From: Bacteroidales bacterium
Lineage (GTDB): Bacteria > Bacteroidota > Bacteroidia > Bacteroidales > UBA932
NCBI GenBank assembly: GCA_017617035.1
Contig: JAFZWV010000026.1
Span: forward strand, 22,983 to 86,982
Direction: 5' to 3'
Length of the DNA: 64,000 nt
Position numbers and translations under genes: made by a program
Part shown: in pieces, positions 44,234 through 63,674 of the stretch
How the letters are laid out: each line of letters opens with the position of its first letter
How positions within the stretch are numbered: position 1 is the first letter of the stretch
The notes under the pieces: generated by a model
Told to the model about the DNA's origin: nothing
Seen by the model: only the letters and a program-made list of their open reading frames with translations
Database searches by the model: none

Positions 44234-44854
44234 ATGAAGTGCGTTTTAATCGACATTAGCGGCGTTTTCGACCAGGAAGAGTTTACCGACCTGCCGTCCA
44301 TCGATCTCAAAGACCTCGAAGGAACCAACTGTTACTGCAGCCCCGAAGCTGCCGCTGTCATCAGCCATGAAATAGACCGTATTCCCCTTTCGACCGTATG
44401 CTGGATTGACACCGGGGATTATCATTACTTGTCGTACTTTAGGGGCCGCCAGATTACCGAGCCCTTCGAGCTCATACTCCTGGATAATCACACCGACGAC
44501 TTCGACGACGCCGACTGCCTTAGTTGCGGCAACTGGGTCCGTGCCCTTCGTCGCGACGCTCCAATGTCATTCCAAGCGGAGCGAAGGAATCCATTGTCAT
44601 TACCGGTATTTTTGTCCATCGACCTAGACGTTTTGAATCCCAACGAATTCAAAACCAACTGGGACCAGGGTACGATGACCTTCGACGAACTCATGGAAAC
44701 GATACGCTCCATCGCGGCGCAGCGTCGAATCATCGCAATAGATATCTGCGGCGGCATCACCGAATCCAAAGGCGCCCTCTCCTGCGACCTCTCGTTCAAT
44801 CGCCTCCAGCGCCAGCGCCTTCTTGATTTCCTTCAAAAATTATTTGCAGAATAG
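44234..44854 (+). CDS. arginase/ureohydrolase-fold protein with in-frame repeat copy
   Basis: About 207 residues, shorter than true arginases (near 300). Metal-site motifs are present: DTGDYHYL, LDNHTDDFDD and SIDLDVLNPNEF. The Asp/His ligands of the Mn site are therefore largely kept, but the substrate is unknown. The sequence MSFQAERRNPLS before LPVFLSIDLD is encoded by a copy of the 26-base repeat at 44565-44591 and has no place in the fold I know, so it is probably a tolerated insertion. Start chosen at 44234 because the -7 box ends at 44227; 44228 is the alternative. Confidence 0.75.
   Translation: MKCVLIDISGVFDQEEFTDLPSIDLKDLEGTNCYCSPEAAAVISHEIDRIPLSTVCWIDTGDYHYLSYFRGRQITEPFELILLDNHTDDFDDADCLSCGNWVRALRRDAPMSFQAERRNPLSLPVFLSIDLDVLNPNEFKTNWDQGTMTFDELMETIRSIAAQRRIIAIDICGGITESKGALSCDLSFNRLQRQRLLDFLQKLFAE
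44565..44591 (+). repeat. short copy of the coding palindromic repeat (copy C)
   Basis: TGTCATTCCAAGCGGAGCGA and the following GGAATC differ at two positions from the end of the full element in citX (51362-51388). It is read in frame inside the arginase-fold gene. Confidence 0.75.
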
Positions 44855-49523: not shown

Positions 49524-50941
49524 GAAATTCAAAGGTAGTTTCGCTCGAAGAAGCAATACGCCGCTCCGGACTTAAGAACGGCCAGACAATATCGTTCCAC
49601 CACCATTTCCGCGGTGGAGACAAGGTAGTCAATCTCGTGGTCGACAAGCTGGCCGAGATGGGGTTCAAGGACCTCAAGCTCGCCGCATCCAGCCTGTCAG
49701 ACGTCCACGCTCCGCTTATCGACCATATCAAGAACGGCGTCATCACCGGAATCAGCACCTCAGGCCTTCGCGGCGAGCTGGCAAACGCCATCTCCCATGG
49801 CCTGCTGAAGGAACCGGTAGTCTTCCGGTCCCATGGCGGACGCGGCAGCGCGATTGCGAGCGGCGAGCAGCACATCGACGTCGCCTTCCTGGGCGCATCG
49901 TCATGCGACGAGCTCGGCAACGCCTCAGGCTGCCCGCGCTCCGAAAATGCAAAGTCGATCTGCGGTTCGCTGGGCTATGCCCTCCCTGACGCCGAGTACG
50001 CCGACCATGTAGTCGTCCTGACAGACGACCTGGTCGCATACCCCAATGTCCCCATGTCCATAAAGGCCAGCCAGGTAGAGTCGGTAGTGGTCGTTGAGTC
50101 CGTGGGCGACAGCTCGAAGATCTCTTCGGGCGCCATCCGCGATTCGAAGAACCCGCGCGACATCCTGCTCGCAAAGCAGGCCGCCAAGGTCATCATCGCC
50201 AGCGGCTATTTCAAGGACGGTTTCTCTATTCAGACCGGCACTGGCGGTGCTTCGCTCGCGGCCGTCAAATACATACGCGAGAGCATGATCGAGCAGGGCA
50301 TCAAGGCCTCCTTCGCCCTGGGCGGAATCACCGCGCACATGGTCAAACTCCACGAAGAGGGCCTGATCGACAAGCTGATCGACGTGCAGTCCTTCGACAA
50401 GGTCGCGGCCGAATCCATTGCCCATGACCAGTCGCACCAGGAGGTGTCGGCCGTGGACTATGCCAGCGCAGACCATCTCGGCTCGGCCGTCCATGCCCTT
50501 GATATCGTCATTCTTTCGGCCCTGGAGGTCGACGTGGACTTCAATGTAAACGTGCTCGTGGGCTCCGACGGCATCATCCGCGGCGCCATAGGCGGCCACC
50601 CCGATACGGCCGAGGACAGCGCGCTTTCGATTATCGTATGCCCTTTGCTTCGCGGTCGCATCCCTTGCGTTGTGCCTAAGGTCACGACGCTCATCACTCC
50701 CGGTTCGTCGGTCGATGTAGTCGTTACCGAGTACGGCATAGCCGTGAACCCGGGCAGGCCTGAGATTGCCGCCCGCCTAAGCGCCGCAGGGCTCAAGGTC
50801 GTGGATATCAAGGACCTCGCCGCGAAGGCAAGCTCTATTATCGGCACTCCCTATCCCCTGCCGTTCGGCGACAAGGTAGTCGGAGTGGTCATGGACCGCC
50901 ATGGCAAGGTGCTCGATGAGATCCATAACATAGTGGAGTGA
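49520..50941 (+). CDS. citF: citrate lyase alpha chain (citrate:acetyl-ACP transferase)
   Basis: Protein of 473 residues, slightly shorter than many CitF chains (near 500). ISFHHHFRGGDKVVNLVVDKLAEMG and the TGTGGASLAAVKYI and VTEYGIAVNPGRPE segments match the CoA-transferase-like fold of CitF. It swaps acetyl for citrate on the carrier. It starts within the end of citE (ATGA-type overlap) and its stop overlaps the GTG of citX. Confidence 0.94.
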   Translation: MRNSKVVSLEEAIRRSGLKNGQTISFHHHFRGGDKVVNLVVDKLAEMGFKDLKLAASSLSDVHAPLIDHIKNGVITGISTSGLRGELANAISHGLLKEPVVFRSHGGRGSAIASGEQHIDVAFLGASSCDELGNASGCPRSENAKSICGSLGYALPDAEYADHVVVLTDDLVAYPNVPMSIKASQVESVVVVESVGDSSKISSGAIRDSKNPRDILLAKQAAKVIIASGYFKDGFSIQTGTGGASLAAVKYIRESMIEQGIKASFALGGITAHMVKLHEEGLIDKLIDVQSFDKVAAESIAHDQSHQEVSAVDYASADHLGSAVHALDIVILSALEVDVDFNVNVLVGSDGIIRGAIGGHPDTAEDSALSIIVCPLLRGRIPCVVPKVTTLITPGSSVDVVVTEYGIAVNPGRPEIAARLSAAGLKVVDIKDLAAKASSIIGTPYPLPFGDKVVGVVMDRHGKVLDEIHNIVE

Positions 50942-51540
50942 TAACGCTCGAACAACTTTTGGACAGCCGGGACAGGCGTGTGCAGCACCAAAGCGAGTTG
51001 CTGTCGGCCTTTCCCGGGTGTTCGCTTATATGTCTGACCGTTCAGCTGCCCGGGCCCGTTAAACGCTCTCCCGATTCGCTGGTCATAGGCGGAGCGGGAC
51101 TGGCGGCTCTGATGGGCGTGTTCGGAAGCGTGCTTCGCCATGCCCAGGTACGCGACCTGGAGACCGGGTACGAGGCCTATTTGCTGGTTCCCCTGCCCGC
51201 GCTCGAGGTAAAGAAGCGCTGCTGCAAGATTGAAGACGAGCATCCGCTGGGGAGGTTGATGGATATAGATGTTATTGCTGAGATCTCTCCACGCGCTTGC
51301 TTCACCCCACCAATTTGCAATTGGCGGGGGCCCCGATCGCTTGGTCGAGACGACATTTCGGTTGTCATTCCGAGCGGAGCGAAGGAACCTCCTATTAGCC
51401 GTTCGGACATCGGTCTTTCGCCCCGGCGCTGCCTGTTGTGTTCGCGCGAGGCGCGTTACTGCATGAGGGCACACACGCATACAACTGAAGAGTTGCTTGC
51501 AAAAATTGCTAAAATGGTAGAAGAGTATACGAAATCGTAA
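50938..51540 (+). CDS. citX: citrate lyase holo-ACP synthase CitX with in-frame repeat insertion
   Basis: Protein of 200 residues, starting at GTG 50938 in a GTGA overlap with citF. CitX motifs flank an insertion: HPLGRLMDIDVI before it, and SRSDIGLSPRRCLLCSREARYC after it. Residues about 115-151 (EISPRACFTPPICNWRG and onward) are encoded by the palindromic repeat copy A and are absent from normal CitX as I know it; removing them gives the usual length near 165-180. CitX transfers the prosthetic group to CitD. Whether the enzyme still works is open, but the frame is intact through both conserved halves. Confidence 0.92.
   Translation: MITLEQLLDSRDRRVQHQSELLSAFPGCSLICLTVQLPGPVKRSPDSLVIGGAGLAALMGVFGSVLRHAQVRDLETGYEAYLLVPLPALEVKKRCCKIEDEHPLGRLMDIDVIAEISPRACFTPPICNWRGPRSLGRDDISVVIPSGAKEPPISRSDIGLSPRRCLLCSREARYCMRAHTHTTEELLAKIAKMVEEYTKS
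51280..51389 (+). repeat. protein-coding palindromic repeat, copy A (in citX)
   Basis: About 110 bases. It contains two palindromes: CCCCACCAATT/AATTGGCGGGG around TGC (51305-51329, one mismatch), and a second near 51341-51373 (GTCGAGACGACA...TGTCATTCCGA). The first 108 bases match copy B (53335-53228, opposite strand) at 100 positions without gaps; the first 58 are identical. The repeat is read in frame as about 37 codons of citX. Confidence 0.92.
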
Positions 51541-51608
51541 TATTATTCGTATCTTAGCTTTGTATTTCATAAGTGGGTCGTACCGGGAGTATTGGGAAGC
51601 CTGCAAAA

Positions 51609-53438
51609 ATGGAAACTATCGCAGAACAGGACATACAGGAGATGCCGTTGTCGTCTCCTTTCTTCCGCACAAAAGTGGAGCGCTTCCTCGAAGAAAATGG
51701 TCTTCGGTCGGAAGCTCTTGATTTTTATTACACCATTCAGTCTTCAGACGCTTCGATAGTCGCAGGAGCGGGTATCGCAGGCGATGTAATAAAGTGTGTG
51801 GCCGTCTGTCATGCCGCCCGTTCGGAAGGACTTTTGGTCCCGCTTATTTCGCATGTAGTTTCCGAAGCGGCAGCGCGAGGAATTCTCAATCTAAAGGTGT
51901 TCACCAAACCCGAGTATCGTGCAGTATTTGAAAGCCTCGGATTCACGGTTTTGGCAACAGCCCCTCTAGCGGTGTTTATGGAAAACGGCCATGGCCTCGA
52001 GGATTACTGCAGGTATCTGGGCGAACACAAAGCGTCGGCGGTCATAGTGATGAACGCCAACCCGTTCACTCTCGGCCACAAATATCTTGCTGAAGCGGCA
52101 TCCAGGTTCGGTTCAAGATCTGTCGCGGTGATTCCCGTACGCGAGGATGTCTCCGAATTCACATATTACGAGCGCCTGGAGATGATACGCAAAGGCTGTG
52201 AAGGGCTGGCAGAGGTAGTTGAAGGCTCTTCATATCAGATTTCCGCCGAGACCTTCCCCACTTACTTTCTGAAGGATTTGTCCGACGCATCCGAGACCCA
52301 GATGCGCCTCGATATAGATTTGTTCGGCAGACATATAGCCCCGGCACTCGGTGCTTTCGCCCGTTACGTAGGTTCTGAACCCACGGATCCTCTGACAGCA
52401 AGGTACAACGCCTTGATGAAGGAGATACTGCCGGGCTACGGATTAGAGGTGGTGGAGGTTCCGCGATTTGAAGCGGAAGGAGTTGCAGTCAGTGCGGCGC
52501 GCGTGCGCGAGGCGCTCGAGGGCGGCGACTTCGCCTCGGCGGCAGCTCTGACGCCCCCGTCGAGCTACCCGTATCTTCTCGCCGCCCTCGCCGAGCGCGC
52601 CCTGCGCCTCGAACTCGACACACCGCTGAAGCCTGGTCTAGTCGGTCCAGATGGTCCGGGAGCACATAAAGATATGGACTATGCGCTGATGCTCAGGAGC
52701 ATTAAGGCGCTGCGCCCTTTCTGGTCCCGAATGGCTGTTGCAACTGATGCCGACGAACTTCGCCGGCTGGGAATCGAGGCCGAGGAGGCGATGCTCGCCG
52801 CGACCGGCGGTGTAAACACCCACCGCGGCGCCATCTTCGCCCTCGCCCTCGCCCTCAACGCCGTTTCGACCTTACCCACTCACCAGGGCCGTAAAGTGGA
52901 AGCCCTTAATACTCAGGCACTTATCCAAAATCGCCTATCAGAAATCGCGCAGGCGATTTTCGACAAATCCCTGACACACAGAGAGTTACACTTTACACCC
53001 AAATCTCACGGAGAGGAGGCGACTAGCAAATATGGGGTAAAAGGCGCGAGGCAGATGGCACTGGATGGATACAAACCTCTGTTTGAGGACTGGCTGCCGT
53101 ATTATAGAAGTCTCGCCAATGACGAATTGCAGATTCAAAAGACTCTGCTGCGCATAATGTCCACTCTCGACGACACCTGCATCATCCACCGCGTCGGCTA
53201 CGACAGGGCGCAGGAGGTAAAAAAAGATTCCTTCGCTGCGCTCGGAATGACAGCCCCACTGTCATCTCGACCGAGCAATCGGGGCCCCCGCCAATTGCAA
53301 ATTGGTGGGGTGAAGCAAGCGCGTGGAGAGATCTCAAAGCTCTGCTCCCAATTCGCAACCGAAGGCGTATCCCCTGGCGGGGCCGCTGATATGCTTGCAT
53401 TGACACTATTCATAAACTCAATACTAAAAACCAATTAA
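51609..53438 (+). CDS. citCG: fused citrate lyase ligase (CitC) and triphosphoribosyl-dephospho-CoA synthase (CitG), with in-frame repeat
   Basis: Start at the ATG at 51609 (GGGAAG upstream); 609 residues. The N-terminal about 325 residues are CitC: a GNAT-like start (ALDFYYTIQSSD) and a nucleotidyltransferase domain with NPFTLGHKYL. CitC acetylates the prosthetic group using ATP. The C-terminal part (about 330-609) is CitG: LDTPLKPGLVGPDGPGAHKDMDY, GGVNTHRGAIFALAL, SPGGAADMLALTLF, which makes the prosthetic-group precursor from dephospho-CoA and ATP. Residues about 540-576 come from repeat copy B, inserted between LDDTCIIHRVGYDRAQEVKK and the final SPGGAAD helix. Confidence 0.92.
   Translation: METIAEQDIQEMPLSSPFFRTKVERFLEENGLRSEALDFYYTIQSSDASIVAGAGIAGDVIKCVAVCHAARSEGLLVPLISHVVSEAAARGILNLKVFTKPEYRAVFESLGFTVLATAPLAVFMENGHGLEDYCRYLGEHKASAVIVMNANPFTLGHKYLAEAASRFGSRSVAVIPVREDVSEFTYYERLEMIRKGCEGLAEVVEGSSYQISAETFPTYFLKDLSDASETQMRLDIDLFGRHIAPALGAFARYVGSEPTDPLTARYNALMKEILPGYGLEVVEVPRFEAEGVAVSAARVREALEGGDFASAAALTPPSSYPYLLAALAERALRLELDTPLKPGLVGPDGPGAHKDMDYALMLRSIKALRPFWSRMAVATDADELRRLGIEAEEAMLAATGGVNTHRGAIFALALALNAVSTLPTHQGRKVEALNTQALIQNRLSEIAQAIFDKSLTHRELHFTPKSHGEEATSKYGVKGARQMALDGYKPLFEDWLPYYRSLANDELQIQKTLLRIMSTLDDTCIIHRVGYDRAQEVKKDSFAALGMTAPLSSRPSNRGPRQLQIGGVKQARGEISKLCSQFATEGVSPGGAADMLALTLFINSILKTN
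53226..53335 (-). repeat. protein-coding palindromic repeat, copy B (in citCG)
   Basis: Same element as copy A but inverted relative to the gene, so the opposite strand of the element is translated, again about 37 codons without a stop (DSFAALGMTAPLSSRPSNRG and onward). It differs from copy A at 8 of 108 positions; four of these are in the loop of the second palindrome. Confidence 0.92.
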
Positions 53439-53444
53439 CTTATT

Positions 53445-55679
53445 ATGGTAGAACTTATCGAACACGGTGTTTACCTTCTTGATGGCAAGACCATCTCGGA
53501 AACCGCTCCTCTGTCGCCCGACGAGGCTCGCGAAAACACCATCGCCTACGGAATCCTGAGGGCTCACGACGTAGACAATTCCAAGGGCAACAAACTTCGC
53601 ATCCGTTTCGATGCGATGGCATCGCACGACATTACTTACGTAGGCATCATCCAGACCGCCCGCGCGAGCGGCCTCGACACCTTCCCCATTCCCTACGCAA
53701 TGACTAACTGCCACAACTCGCTATGTGCAGTCGGCGGTACGATCAACGAAGACGACCATGTCTTCGGCCTCAGCGCAGCCAAGAAGTACGGCGGAATCTA
53801 TGTGCCTGCAAACCAGGCTGTTATCCACCAGTACGTAAGGGAGAAACTCTCCGGCTGCGGCCGCATGGTCCTCGGCTCCGACTCCCACACCCGCTATGGC
53901 TCTCTCGGCTGCATGGGCGTTGGCGAAGGCGGCGGCGAGCTCGTCAAGCAGCTCCTCAAGAACACCTGGGACATCAACGCTCCCGAGGTCGTTCTCGTCT
54001 GGCTCGAAGGCAAGCCCAAGCATGGCGTAGGCCCTCATGACGTGGCGATCAGCCTCGTCAAGGCCGTATTCGAATCCGGCTTCGTAAAGAACAAGGTGCT
54101 CGAATTCGCAGGCCCTGGAGTAAAGGAACTCCCCATCGACTTCCGTAACGGCATCGACGTGATGACTACCGAGACTACCTGCCTCAGCTCCATCTGGATC
54201 ACCGACGAAGAGGTCAAGCACTACTTCGACATCCACGAGCGTCCGGAAGCATTCAAGGAGCTCAAGCCCGGCAAGATCGCATACTACGACAGCATGATCA
54301 GGATCGATCTCAGCACCCAGGAGTGTATGATCGCCCTCCCCTTCCATCCGAGCAACGCTTACACCATCCACGAACTCCAGGCCGATCCCGAAGGCATTCT
54401 CAGGGCAGTCGAGGAAGACACCCGCAAGCGCTTCGGCGACAAGGTCCAGGTTGACCTCGTCAGCAAAATTAAAGACGGCAAGGTCGTAGCAGACCAGGCC
54501 CTCATAGCCGGTTGCTCCGGCGGTACCTACGACAACCTCGCCGAGGCCGCCTCTATCCTCAAGGGCAAGACTATCGGCAACGACTACTTTACCATGAGCT
54601 GCTACCCGCAGTCCACTCCGGTTTACCTGGCAACCACCCGTGACCATATCGCCGAGGAACTGCTCGAGGCCGGCGTTGTAATCAAGCCCGCCTTCTGCGG
54701 ACCTTGCTTCGGCGCAGGCGACGTACCCGCCAACAACGGCTTCTCCATCCGCCACACTACCCGCAACTTCCCTAACCGTGAGGGCTCCAAGCCCGGCCAG
54801 GGCCAGATTTCGCTCGTATCGCTGATGGACGCACGTTCTATCGCAGCTACAGCAGCCAACGGCGGAGTTCTTACCGCCGCGACCGATATCGAGTACACCG
54901 ACAACCATGCCCCTTACAAGTTCGACGGCCGAATCTACAAAAGCCGCTGCTACGACGGCTTCGGCAAGGCCGATCTCAGCGTGGAGCTTCGCTATGGACC
55001 TAACATCAAGGACTGGCCGACCATGTACCCGATGGAGGAGAACATGCTCCTCGAGCTGGCCGCGGTCATCCATGACCCCGTGACGACCACCGACGAGCTC
55101 ATCCCGTCCGGCGAGACCTCGAGCTACCGCTCGAATCCGCTGAAACTCAGCGAGTTCGCACTCAGCCGCAGGGTGCCCGAATACGTAGGCCTTTCGAAGG
55201 CCATCCAGGCTCAGGACCTCGACCGCAGGGCAGGCAAACTGTCCGACAAATTGGCTGCGGCCCTTAAGGCGGTCGGAGCAAGCGCCGGCAACACCTCGCT
55301 AGGCTCCTGCGTCTTCGCGAACAAGCCCGGCGACGGCTCCGCCCGTGAGCAGGCCGCTTCCTGCCAGAAGGTTCTCGGCGGCGACGCCAACATCTGCTTC
55401 GAATACGCTACCAAGCGCTACCGCTCGAACTGCATCAACTGGGGTATCGTCCCGTTCACCATCGCACCCGATACCAAGTTTGACTATGAGCCCGGCGACT
55501 ACGTGTTTGTTCCCGGTATTCGCAAGGCTATCCTCGAAGGCAAGGAGGAGATTGACGCACAGGTCATCACAAAGAACGGCGTAAAACCGCTCCACCTCTT
55601 CTTCCAGAACCTCACCGCCGACGAAAGGCAAATCCTAGCCGACGGATGTCTCATGAATTATTACAAAAACCGCAAATAA
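53445..55679 (+). CDS. aconitate hydratase
   Basis: Protein of 744 residues of the aconitase type common in Bacteroidota. The [4Fe-4S] region includes [15 protein letters not shown] and [13 protein letters not shown], and [16 protein letters not shown] and [22 protein letters not shown] form the active site. It isomerises citrate to isocitrate. It lies 6 bases after the citCG stop and overlaps icd by one base, so it belongs to the same operon as citrate lyase. Confidence 0.9.
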
Positions 55680-60696: not shown

Positions 60697-62919
60697 ATGA
60701 ACCGCATAATTACTCTTTGTTGCCTTCTCGTACTGCCCCTTGCAGCGAAGGCACAAATCACTTTGGTCGAAGACGGCAAACCAGCCGCAGAAATCATTCT
60801 GACCGACCCCGATAATGCAGCAGATCAAAGGGCTGCCGAACTGCTCAACCTGTTCGTAGAGCGCATAAGCGGCGCAGTGCTGCCCTTCTCCGCAGACAGC
60901 CTTAAAGCCAAAGTCATAATCGGCGGCGCGACCGACGCTGCCTCCGAAGACGGCTTCCTGATCGAATGCGCAGGCGACACGCTGCGCATCCTCAGCGGCG
61001 GCGGCAAAGGCAGCGTCTACGGCGCCGTCACCCTTCTGGAGCGCTACATGGGCGTATCCTATTACGCCAAGGACACCTATACCCTGACGGAAAGCAGTAC
61101 AATAGAACTGCCGGCAATTAGCCTCACAGAATCCCCCGCCTTCCGTCATCGTCAGACCTACAGCTATGGCAACGACGACCCTGTATATCGCGACTGGTTC
61201 CGCCTCAAAGATCCTCAGGAAGTCTTTGCGGCCGGCCTTTGGGTCCATACCTTCAACCCGCTTCTTCCTTCCGAGCAGTACGGCGAGACTCACCCCGAGT
61301 ACTATGCCCTCATCAATGGAGAGAGGCGTCCGGGCCGCCACAGCCAGTGGTGTCTGACCAATCCCGAAGTATTCGAGATAGTAGCCGCCAGGATCGATTC
61401 CATCTTCCAGGCAAATCCCGGCATGAAGACTATCTCCGTGAGCCAGAACGACGGCAACGACACCTACTGCACATGCCCTGAATGCAAGGCTGTAGACGAA
61501 TATGAAGGCTCGCCTTCCGGCAACCTCATCCGCTTCATGAACAAACTGGCGGAGCGCTTCCCCGATAAGGAGTTTTCGACCCTCGCCTACCTATACAGCG
61601 TACAGCCGCCCCAGCATGTCAAGCCCCTTCCCAATGTAAACATCATGCTCTGCGACATCGACTGCAGGCGCGAAGTTCCCCTTACCGAGAATGAATCGGG
61701 CAAGGAATTCATGAAGGCCCTCGAAGGCTGGGGAAAGATTAGCAACAACATCTTCGTCTGGGATTACGGCATCAACTTCGACAACCTCGTCTCGCCCTTC
61801 CCCAACTTCCACATCCTTCAGCCAAACATGCTGGAGTTCAAGAAGAACGGCGCAACCATGCTCTTTGAGCAGGTAAACGGCAACCGCGGCACCGACTTCG
61901 CTGAGCTGCGCGCCTACGTTATCGCTAAGCTCATGTGGGATCCCGAGCAGGACGTCGAGGCACTCATTGACGAGTTCATGGAGGGTTACTATGGAGAGGC
62001 CGCGCGCTACATCAAGGCATACCAGCTGTCGCTGCGCAACTCTATGCTCGTGAGCCACATTCCCCTCTGGATCTACGACTCCCCCATCTCGCATAAAGAG
62101 GGCATGCTGAGCGCCCCCATGCTCCACCTCTACGATTCGCTCTTCGACAAGGCCGAAGCCGCTGTTGCCTGCGACCAGGACCTCCTCGACAGGGTATGGC
62201 TCTCCCGCCTGCCTCTACAGTACTCGGAGTTGGAGATAGCCCGCACGGAACCCATAGAAGACCGCGAAGCTCTCAGGGAAAAGGTCCTTACCTTCAAAGA
62301 CCATTGCGAGCGTCTGGGAGTTGAAGCCCTTACCGAAAGGGGTATCGATCCGTCATTCTACTGCGATCAGTATCTCGAGCGTTATCTGGCCGACGACAGC
62401 GGCAATCTCGCCCTCGGAGCTAAGGTCACCCTCAAAAAAGCTCCTACAGGCAGGTACGCTGAATTCGGAGAGACTGCTCTCACCGACGGCCTCTACGGCG
62501 GAAGCACCTTCGTCGAAAGCTGGGTTGGTTGGGAAGGAACCAATGCCGATATCATCATCGACCTTGGAGAAGAGAAGACCTTCAACTGCATCGAAGCCGA
62601 TTTCCTGCACCAGCTAGGCGCATGGATTCTGCTTCCTGAGTCCGTATTCTTCCTCGTCTCCCCTGACGAAACTTCATACAAGCTCTTCGGAGTCCATGAA
62701 TTCGAAGAAGACCGCGACCTGGCCGTCAAGTTCAAAAAGGCGACCGCTGTTTCCAAAGAACCCGTTACCGCACGTTTTGTCAGAGTACATGTATTCGGAG
62801 TAGGACTCTGCCCCGACTGGCACTACGGCGTAGGCCACCCCGCCTGGTTCTTCCTCGACGAAATTACCGTCAGCAATAGAACAGGAGATTTCTCGACTAC
62901 GCTCGAAATGACAGATTAG
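60697..62919 (+). CDS. DUF4838 domain protein with F5/8C-like C-terminal domain
   Basis: Protein of 740 residues with signal peptide (MNRIITLCCLLVLPLAAKA). Residues about 20-125 look like the alpha-glucuronidase/GH20 N-terminal domain (GSVYGAVTLLERYMGVSYYAKDTYTL). The DUF4838 barrel is about 170-440, with ISVSQNDGNDTYCTCPECKAVDE and MLCDIDCRREV. The C-terminal about 150 residues resemble F5/8C. It is probably an exported glycosidase-like protein of unknown substrate. The last residues (GDFSTTLEMTD) are encoded by a repeat copy (62884-62914). The stop overlaps the convergent cyclotransferase stop. Confidence 0.82.
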   Translation: MNRIITLCCLLVLPLAAKAQITLVEDGKPAAEIILTDPDNAADQRAAELLNLFVERISGAVLPFSADSLKAKVIIGGATDAASEDGFLIECAGDTLRILSGGGKGSVYGAVTLLERYMGVSYYAKDTYTLTESSTIELPAISLTESPAFRHRQTYSYGNDDPVYRDWFRLKDPQEVFAAGLWVHTFNPLLPSEQYGETHPEYYALINGERRPGRHSQWCLTNPEVFEIVAARIDSIFQANPGMKTISVSQNDGNDTYCTCPECKAVDEYEGSPSGNLIRFMNKLAERFPDKEFSTLAYLYSVQPPQHVKPLPNVNIMLCDIDCRREVPLTENESGKEFMKALEGWGKISNNIFVWDYGINFDNLVSPFPNFHILQPNMLEFKKNGATMLFEQVNGNRGTDFAELRAYVIAKLMWDPEQDVEALIDEFMEGYYGEAARYIKAYQLSLRNSMLVSHIPLWIYDSPISHKEGMLSAPMLHLYDSLFDKAEAAVACDQDLLDRVWLSRLPLQYSELEIARTEPIEDREALREKVLTFKDHCERLGVEALTERGIDPSFYCDQYLERYLADDSGNLALGAKVTLKKAPTGRYAEFGETALTDGLYGGSTFVESWVGWEGTNADIIIDLGEEKTFNCIEADFLHQLGAWILLPESVFFLVSPDETSYKLFGVHEFEEDRDLAVKFKKATAVSKEPVTARFVRVHVFGVGLCPDWHYGVGHPAWFFLDEITVSNRTGDFSTTLEMTD
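62884..62914 (-). repeat. short relative of the coding palindromic repeat (copy D)
   Basis: On the minus strand it reads CTGTCATTTCGAGCGTAGTC followed by GAGAAATCTCC. This is the same consensus as the end of copies A and B (TGTCATTYCGAGCG...GAA), with a few differences. It supplies the last codons of the DUF4838 gene. Confidence 0.65.
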
Positions 62920-63674
62920 TCTGCTTCGACTAGTTTGACCTCATACAGTCTGGGCCAATTCTTTCCGGTAAGGAAGATGCGGCCCTTACTGTTTACTGCA
63001 ATACCATTCAGAACATCGGTATCGCGGGTGCGAAGTTTTTCCGGCAGAAGGCCCGAACAATCGATAGTGGCCTCCACCTTTCCGTTTGATGGATTAATTA
63101 CCAGAATGATATCGGTAGTATAGACATTCGCCCATATGCGTCCGTCTACCCATTCCAGCTCGTTAATGTATCGGACCGGGCGACCGTTCATAGTGACCAT
63201 AACGGAGCGAAGTTGCTGAAGTTCAGGAGTATAGAAAGTCAAACGAGCCGACCCATCGGAGGCTATCAACTGCTTCCCATCTGTCGTCAAGCCCCATCCC
63301 TCACGAGCGAACGAATAACTCATCTGATACTCCATCGAAGCGGCGTCATAAACAAATACCACTTGATTCTGCCAGGTCAGTACGTACAGCTTATCTCCAA
63401 GCACGCACGATCCCTCGGCAAAATACTTCTTCGATATATTACGCGACTCCAGAACCGAGCCCGTCGACAAATCCACCTTTCTCAGCGACGACTTCCCATT
63501 CAGGCCTGTCGACTCATACAGCTCGTCCTGATAGAAAAACAATCCCTGCGTATATGCTCCCGTATCGTGATTGTATTCCTTAACCACCTCCACCTCGAAC
63601 CTTTTCACCTGCGCCTCCGCACACGACGACGCAAGCAAACACGCAACCAGAGCAACCAAACATCTCATTCGCAT
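62916..63674 (-). CDS. glutaminyl-peptide cyclotransferase (plant/bacterial beta-propeller type)
   Basis: About 252 residues; starts at the ATG at 63674 or 63668, with lipobox ASSC. The beta-propeller signatures of this family are present: NHDTGAYTQGLFFYQDELYESTGLNGKSSLR, YFAEGSCVLGDKLYVLTWQN, YINELEWVDGRIWANVY and VLNGIAVNSKGRIFLTGKNWPRLYEV. It forms N-terminal pyroglutamate on exported proteins. In Bacteroidota many mature secreted proteins begin with Gln, which fits an envelope location. The stop overlaps the DUF4838 stop. Confidence 0.92.
   Translation of the reverse strand: MRMRCLVALVACLLASSCAEAQVKRFEVEVVKEYNHDTGAYTQGLFFYQDELYESTGLNGKSSLRKVDLSTGSVLESRNISKKYFAEGSCVLGDKLYVLTWQNQVVFVYDAASMEYQMSYSFAREGWGLTTDGKQLIASDGSARLTFYTPELQQLRSVMVTMNGRPVRYINELEWVDGRIWANVYTTDIILVINPSNGKVEATIDCSGLLPEKLRTRDTDVLNGIAVNSKGRIFLTGKNWPRLYEVKLVEAD

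Follow-up and report, generated by a model that had tools for sequence, protein, structure and literature searches.

The citrate-lyase locus and its two repeat copies

The stretch analysed here, hereafter the window, comprises 64,000 nucleotides of a Bacteroidales bacterium of UBA932 (assembly GCA_017617035.1, contig JAFZWV010000026.1, positions 22,983 to 86,982), the draft genome of which amounts to 1.64 Mb in 33 contigs at 80% completeness, and the subject of this work is a palindromic repeat of about 110 bp that lies in frame within two neighbouring genes of the window, citX and citCG. From the reading of its open reading frames (ORFs) the region represents a citrate-lyase operon with citD, citE, citF, citX and a citCG fusion, whereby the names CitX, CitC and CitG are backed by Pfam and the other operon names come from the reading of the sequences only. 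The apo-citrate lyase phosphoribosyl-dephospho-CoA transferase CitX (200 aa) is encoded on the plus strand at 50938 to 51540 and hosts copy A of the repeat; Pfam CitX (PF03802) matches it with E 4.9e-44 in two stretches, the best one of which stops at residue 115. The citCG gene, likewise on the plus strand at 51573 to 53438, fuses citrate lyase ligase (Citrate_ly_lig, PF08218) to triphosphoribosyl-dephospho-CoA synthase (CitG, PF01874) and carries copy B in its CitG part. For CitX a solved homologue is found in the PDB (7dcm); for CitG none was identified there by sequence. Loci akin to the cit region of the window carry the titles of Bacteroidales metagenome-assembled genomes, many of them from rumen.

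An earlier reading of this DNA, made without database searches (the sequence-only reading), had claimed that one repeat is present in both genes in opposite orientations, and this was borne out: an ungapped alignment of copy A (51280-51389) with copy B (53226-53335, reverse-complemented) has matches at 101 of 110 positions and no difference within the first 58, and blastn inside the window aligns the two over 112 bp at 92% (E 2e-42). Both copies sit amid conserved parts of CitX and CitG, free of stops and in the frame of the host gene, and copy A is read from one strand of the element and copy B from the opposite one, all as proposed earlier. Each copy is built from two inverted, TGTC-tagged hairpin units resembling repetitive extragenic palindromic (REP) sequences, which are separated by a 7-bp spacer and one of which has 39 extra bp nested in it. 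Blastn and the alignment of long copies place copy A at 51280 to 51390 on the plus strand, where its long arm of 75 nt (51281 to 51355, plus strand) forms the hairpin unit AGATCTC...GAGACGACA with the 39 nested bp and possesses GACGACA instead of GATGACA, for which reason a strict family pattern misses it. Within this arm lies the inner palindrome CCCCACCAATTTGCAATTGGCGGGG (51305 to 51329, plus strand), which, when copy A was searched against the own genome, was located only in the seven long copies among the matches listed. The spacer follows at 51356 to 51362 (plus strand), and the short arm of 28 nt, TGTCATTCC...GGAACCT at 51363 to 51390 (plus strand), reads VIPSGAKEP. Copy B, inverted relative to copy A, occupies 53225 to 53335 on the minus strand; its 28-nt short arm (53225 to 53252) reads DSFAALGMT on the plus strand, its 7-bp spacer extends from 53253 to 53259, and its long arm of 75 nt (53260 to 53334, minus strand) contains the same nested palindrome as copy A and reads SSRPSNRGPRQLQIGGVKQARGEI. 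Peptide stretches near the junctions with the host proteins are, for example, VIPSGAKEPPISR in CitX and EVKKDSFAALGMT in CitG.

Comparison with related loci documents what the copies add to their hosts. CitX could be parsed in 97 of 110 loci, 21 of which duplicate others, and the loop that follows the DxDV motif measures 42 aa in the window as compared to 8-9 aa in 51 of the 97. L153 and L154, which the tree places nearest to the CitX of the window (SH-aLRT 97), possess loops of 16 and 12 aa and lack the element. The CitG segment reaching from IIHRVG to SPGG is 57 aa long in the window, 35 aa in 21 of 39 parsable loci and 29 aa in L154, and in L153 it spans 73 aa and holds a different insert of its own. 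Of the earlier statement that about 37 codons were added to each enzyme, the insert size hence stood and the net gain did not, as the latter is smaller and amounts to 22-28 aa at the site of copy B; by subtraction, copy B seems to have replaced or removed some 9-15 neighbouring host residues. The possibility that orthologous CitX and CitG carry the same residues, raised in the earlier reading as well, is answered by parsed orthologues without the element, save for stretches derived from the unit such as CHPERSEGS in the CitX of L217 and L220.

Elsewhere in the window blastn revealed just two further matches to the element, both partial. One, at 62880-62913 (E 0.11), includes a single unit of the family, AGATTTC...GAAATGACA (62886 to 62913, plus strand), at the C-terminal end of a called ORF of 740 aa; the other, at 44565-44589 (E 5e-6), is a partial match to the same TGTC repeat family. 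A comparison of positions 50900-53500 with Rfam returned nothing at the gathering score, the sole listed match being a sub-threshold snoRNA. Located 3' of citCG are ORFs read as aconitase, isocitrate dehydrogenase and a relative of fumarase and aspartase.

A dispersed repeat family with complementary stems

Copies A and B are members of a dispersed, multi-copy REP-type repeat family with complementary stems. With copy A as query, the scoring of 40 of 78 first-look candidates yielded at least 46 matches in the own genome, seven of them long, and the short matches share a unit of the form AGATYYC-loop-GRRATGACA, the GACA end of which is TGTC on the opposite strand. The derived pattern AGATYYCN{8,38}GRRATGACA matches the 1.64-Mb genome 152 times, including a few nested double counts, and its reversed control 0 times; that the genome might hold no further copies, a possibility which the sequence-only reading had considered, is thereby answered. 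The pattern is present at least once in 118 of 151 genomes of the same genus and in 275 of 395 genomes of the phylum (the own genome being counted in both), whereby reversed controls yield 0-2 matches per genome, so that single matches may be due to chance and tens of copies are not. Both lists are headed by the own genome, followed by genomes with 112, 111 and 108 matches.

The anatomy of the unit was derived from a sample of 122 units, drawn from 248 kb of sequence pieces that surround matches. In all of these units but one (121/122) the two variable stem positions complement each other, as compared to 37.5 expected if the positions were independent, with the stem versions TC (47), TT (43), CT (18) and CC (14) being represented. 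The continuous stem that starts from AT..AT comprises 5 bp in 122/122 units and the remaining hairpin is interrupted. The hairpins are thus short, and they are proposed because of the covariation of their stems and not on grounds of folding energy. Unit lengths range from 28 to 42 nt and reach 75 nt in the long form. Among 42 pairs of neighbouring units less than 80 bp apart, 29 have their tags inside, 11 are in tandem and two have their tags outside, and all of the close tags-inside pairs (19/19) possess arms of unequal length. The long form is such a tags-inside pair in which one arm is enlarged by 39 bp, these being near-invariant across the seven long copies. The TGTC tag occurs in every pattern match, as the pattern demands it, and likewise in the long copies detected with blastn, where a single copy shows a base change beside the tag. 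An origin of copy B as a local duplicate of copy A was considered and rejected, as A and B agree at 102/111 positions and the other two full-length long copies are equally near (102-104/111).

Inserts in proteins and repeat families sharing enzyme loops

Units of the family are found inside many genes. Based on gene calls, 62 of the 122 sampled units lie inside called ORFs, 49 between them and 11 at their edges, the number of 62 being a lower bound since in-frame inserts, e.g., in genes read as TldD and PrmC, were missed. When an insert is considered internal with at least 40 codons before and at least 25 after it, 31 proteins with internal in-frame inserts are obtained from the caller and about 34 after adding CitX, TldD and PrmC. 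PDB matches identified RNase R, urocanase, carbamate kinase, MurF, UvrC and ManC among the hosts, and Pfam, applied to 16 host proteins, identified RibF (FAD synthetase/riboflavin kinase), FtsK, a PBP2-like transpeptidase, a SpoU methylase, a radical SAM protein and others. Seven host proteins were compared with PDB sequences, and in the five alignments that spanned the insert site the insert is absent from the solved homologue, i.e., RNase R (8cdu), urocanase (6uek), carbamate kinase (1b7b), ManC (2x5s) and the RibF-like 3op1, the last alignment being the loosest of the five and its entry being deposited under a different name.

The reading frame in which units occur inside genes is non-random. 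The 28-nt arm with TC stem leaves four frames open in 44/44 copies and a fifth in 39/44, and one frame is closed. Where the 28-nt unit is internal to a gene (22 sites), VIPSEAKES or a near variant is read 16 times; the remaining sites read DSFASLGMT and variants (four) or CHSERSE/CHSERSR (two, both in PrmC). At least 16 of 22 sites in one frame corresponds to P 1e-7 with five equal frames and to 3e-6 with four, whereby the sites are partly dependent, two residing in a single gene (contig C8). A case on contig C28 that is open throughout and reads CHSERSE seems to lie 5' of the gene start and was excluded; counting it would give 16/23 and P 4e-7 with five frames. The spacer length inside genes is probably non-random as well, as a 7-bp spacer was found in 12 of 14 genic pairs versus one of five others (Fisher P 0.017, with the PrmC pair taken as genic) and, with the PrmC pair taken as non-genic, in 12/13 versus 1/6 (P 0.003). 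Among 37 non-genic clusters, 11 cases are flanked on either side by an open frame of 80 codons or more, and no frame-broken gene was recognised within them; in four the element has a stop and lies between apparently separate genes, and seven are open through. A gene read as PrmC/HemK in the own genome (C14:62948-63248; L029, L130) apparently contains three in-frame units, at 63010, 63172 and 63209, the otherwise rare CHSERSE reading being among them.

In relatives the loops of the citrate-lyase enzymes are occupied by further, unrelated repeat families. The CitX loop comprises 4-14 aa in 68 of the 97 parsed loci and at least 28 aa in 25, and the long loops hold a hairpin reading ENYFS..KNQF (family F2), a tandem SLKKPVFADG repeat (F4), a 110-bp element (F6) or an 80-bp piece (F3), the latter two being found in either orientation. 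F6 occupies the same place of the CitX loop in opposite orientations in different species (L092 and L187 versus L097, L199, L204 and L098; 90% over 110 bp inverted), which could result from the inversion of one ancestral insert by exchange of palindromic arms, as its arms are alike on both sides. On a tree of 76 distinct CitX sequences a minimum of nine changes is needed for presence or absence and of 13 for the family states, whereby many branches are weakly supported and the row of L232, labelled as insert, represents a host duplication. Matches to F2, F4 and F6 were counted in 11 genomes, and may be pieces of one copy. F6 gave 25, 25, 27, 17 and 18 matches in five genomes and 0 in six, and CitX carries F6 in three of the five positive genomes and F3 in two. 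F4 gave 18 and 12 matches in two genomes, both with F4 in CitX, and 0 in nine; F2 gave 26 and 9 in two carriers, one each in the carrier G163 and in G069, and 0 in seven.

CitG and CitC of relatives carry families as well, namely F1, F2 and F6. By gapped tblastn inserts were found in CitC at 25 of 69 loci and in CitG at 24 of 63, these counts being upper estimates that include alignment artefacts (e.g., L204, L229 and L196). Insertions of at least 12 aa were found in none of 55 CitD, 62 CitE and 67 CitF loci and in two of 40 aconitase loci. Family signatures were present in 29 of 152 CitX and CitCG gene-loci versus 0 of 246 for CitD, CitE, CitF and aconitase, with not all gene-loci being independent. 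Because several unrelated repeat families sit in them in relatives, the CitX, CitC and CitG loops are suggested to be permissive sites. Two observations may be added on these genes. In L110, L186 and L190 the start of the insert completes a near-perfect palindrome of 37 nt (arms of about 18 nt) with the adjoining citX sequence, suggesting that DNA was synthesised by snap-back or template switching at insertion. Inspection by eye of citCG in L155, L202, L217 and L219 found stretches of two repeat families in one gene, in the case of L155 ENYFLQGFAKNQFS next to a TGTC-unit reading.

Origin of the inserts and their relation to known systems

The explanation in which we place high confidence considers the inserts as dispersed REP-type DNA that is tolerated in frame in permissive loops, is filtered by selection and works in the manner of the Rickettsia palindromic elements (RPEs). 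Here, copies would be spread into many places by some process, whereupon selection would remove those that break the frame, bring a stop into the used frame or hit a critical part, and those residing in surface loops of accessory enzymes would be kept and translated as extra loop peptides. The sequence-only reading had suggested a REP-like unit tolerated inside proteins, which fits, and possible movement in the manner of a miniature inverted-repeat transposable element. For the latter, imperfect inverted arms are present in the long element, and neither a target duplication was established nor a linked mobilising gene found.

Several points weigh against this explanation. Copy B is not a clean insertion, as adjoining host residues are missing, and neither a target-site duplication nor an exact empty site at nucleotide level was established for the copies. 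Folded whole as DNA, the 131-nt element was no more stable than its shuffles (z -0.54, with 51 of 200 shuffles equally good), which speaks against a simple palindrome. The sampled pieces were centred on known units and represent, beyond contig C23, matches of the copy A search only; genes were called with a home-made codon-score caller, which missed several genic units; and the PDB alignments of MurF and UvrC stopped short of the insert site. F2 is a single match in G163, a CitX carrier, which does not support its multi-copy status there. No link between a mobilising gene and the units was seen at the PF01797 loci described below, and translation of the inserts is what we infer from the DNA.

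For the step of mobility alone, an alternative was considered in which the units are REP doublets forming hairpins (REPINs) that are moved in trans by a resident REP-associated tyrosine transposase (RAYT; TnpA_REP, Y1, HUH), as proposed for GTAG-tagged REPs. This is possible and rather unlikely. Like the known REPs described in PMC6006769, the units form hairpins that bear a 5' tetranucleotide and lie in inverted pairs, and the own genome contains six matches to PF01797, four of them above the cut-off, in ORFs of 79-386 aa. Yet none of these six loci (about 1.5 kb on each side, 19.3 kb) holds a unit, 1.8 being expected and the probability of none being 0.17, a weak result. PF01797, the sole profile tested, was also searched in six genomes of the same genus, four of which gave matches; here, two of 10 loci (30.6 kb) hold one unit each with 1.2 expected, and G067 (98% complete, 53 pattern matches) and G118 (83%, 80 matches) have no match at E<=0.001. 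The six Y1 transposase (PF01797) matches at loci L055-L060 of G000, several in ORFs of 289-386 aa, have no TGTC units close by.

That the inserts are functional peptides kept for the benefit of the enzymes, for instance as regulatory or interaction loops, is quite improbable. The VIPSEAKES reading is strongly favoured and the same loops were struck repeatedly, which speaks for such peptides, but the loop is filled by unrelated families, with F6 in both orientations across species, it is just 4-14 aa long in most parsed CitX loci (68/97), and the same peptides are found in unrelated proteins. An assembly artefact, caused by short-read metagenome binning around repeats, deserves very little credence. 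The near-identical 110-bp copies are a mere 1.9 kb apart in a fragmented draft, and the window's own two copies are known from one assembly; against this, the gene halves are in the right order and frame at both sites, and like inserts recur in independently named assemblies, such as the CitX insert common to L199 (RUG579) and L204 (RGIG2644) at 99.4% over 171 nt. Mobile bypass elements are a feature of the mitochondria of Magnusiomyces, with T4 gene 60 as a further instance of bypassing. The hairpins and the conserved enzyme blocks on both sides would fit an insert that is cut from the RNA or bypassed by ribosomes, but such an origin is scarcely credible, since in-frame, stop-free use, a frame bias and a preferred spacer would be needless if the element were skipped, and no frame-broken gene was recognised among the cases examined.

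Dispersed REP-type DNA that is tolerated in frame has counterparts in known systems, which are compared here by their descriptions in excerpts of Di Nocera et al. 2013 (PMC3733652) and of PMC10969869. RPEs are palindromic repeats found in frame in many unrelated genes, with several families per lineage (PMC10969869, PMC3733652), and protein-coding palindromes are best known from Rickettsia. The present repeats resemble RPEs in being palindromic and in frame in unrelated metabolic and housekeeping genes, where they are read as extra peptides. They differ in belonging to a distant phylum, in their shorter unit, their 5-bp stems and their tags inside pairs, and in that several unrelated families use the same CitX, CitC and CitG loops in different species. 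The second counterpart is the superfamily of CGTC-tagged REPs (CGTC-1 to -4), the tag of which is often written TGTC and which the excerpts of PMC3733652 report from five phyla including Bacteroidetes; there, REPs within ORFs are listed for several species, and RPE-4 and RPE-6 of Rickettsia are equated with this superfamily. The earlier remark that no described family was known to its author from Bacteroidota was hence right in part only. Shared with the superfamily are the tag at the foot of the hairpin (CGTC, TGTC or CCTC there, TGTC here), the AT..AT stem start, the short tail, frequent pairs of unlike arms, a location partly in ORFs, the occurrence in Bacteroidetes and the lack of a dedicated transposase, for which PF01797 was the sole test here. 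In contrast, stems of 8-9 bp with loops of 4-5 bp are described for the superfamily and 5 bp were found in 122/122 units, tags-outside (HH) pairs predominate there and tags-inside pairs here (29/42), and the long form has 39 nested bp. Because stem length and pair orientation deviate, the repeat was not filed in CGTC-1 to -4. With REPINs and bacterial interspersed mosaic elements, accompanied by RAYT, the family shares short tagged hairpins, inverted pairs and a high copy number, but its tag is TGTC and not GTAG or GTGG, many copies lie inside genes, and a RAYT gene flanked by cognate REPs was not seen within flanks of about 1.5 kb.

A search of the open-access literature for the DNA strings and peptides of the repeat retrieved no relevant paper among those listed, and a limited search of the same literature found no description of these repeats in this genus. 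Within these searches, what appears to be new is the scale of the phenomenon in a genus of Bacteroidota, the preference for one frame and the occupation of the same enzyme loops by families unrelated to each other. For the annotation of these genomes this implies that protein segments derived from repeats may be mistaken for novel domains. Considered more broadly, the chances are about even that small palindromic families regularly supply new protein loops in this clade of rumen Bacteroidales, several unrelated ones having entered the same loops of the citrate-lyase maturation enzymes CitX, CitC and CitG time and again, whereby an active family would be read mainly in one harmless frame and would use both genes and intergenic space as habitat. 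Intragenic REPs are listed for some species other than Rickettsia in the excerpts of PMC3733652, and here a gut group of a distant phylum possesses dozens of decorated proteins in a single genome. It furthermore offers natural replicates, in which one loop is empty, filled with different repeats or filled with the same repeat flipped, and which bring within direct reach the questions of where a protein tolerates added sequence, whether the encoded peptide is under selection and by what means the repeats move.

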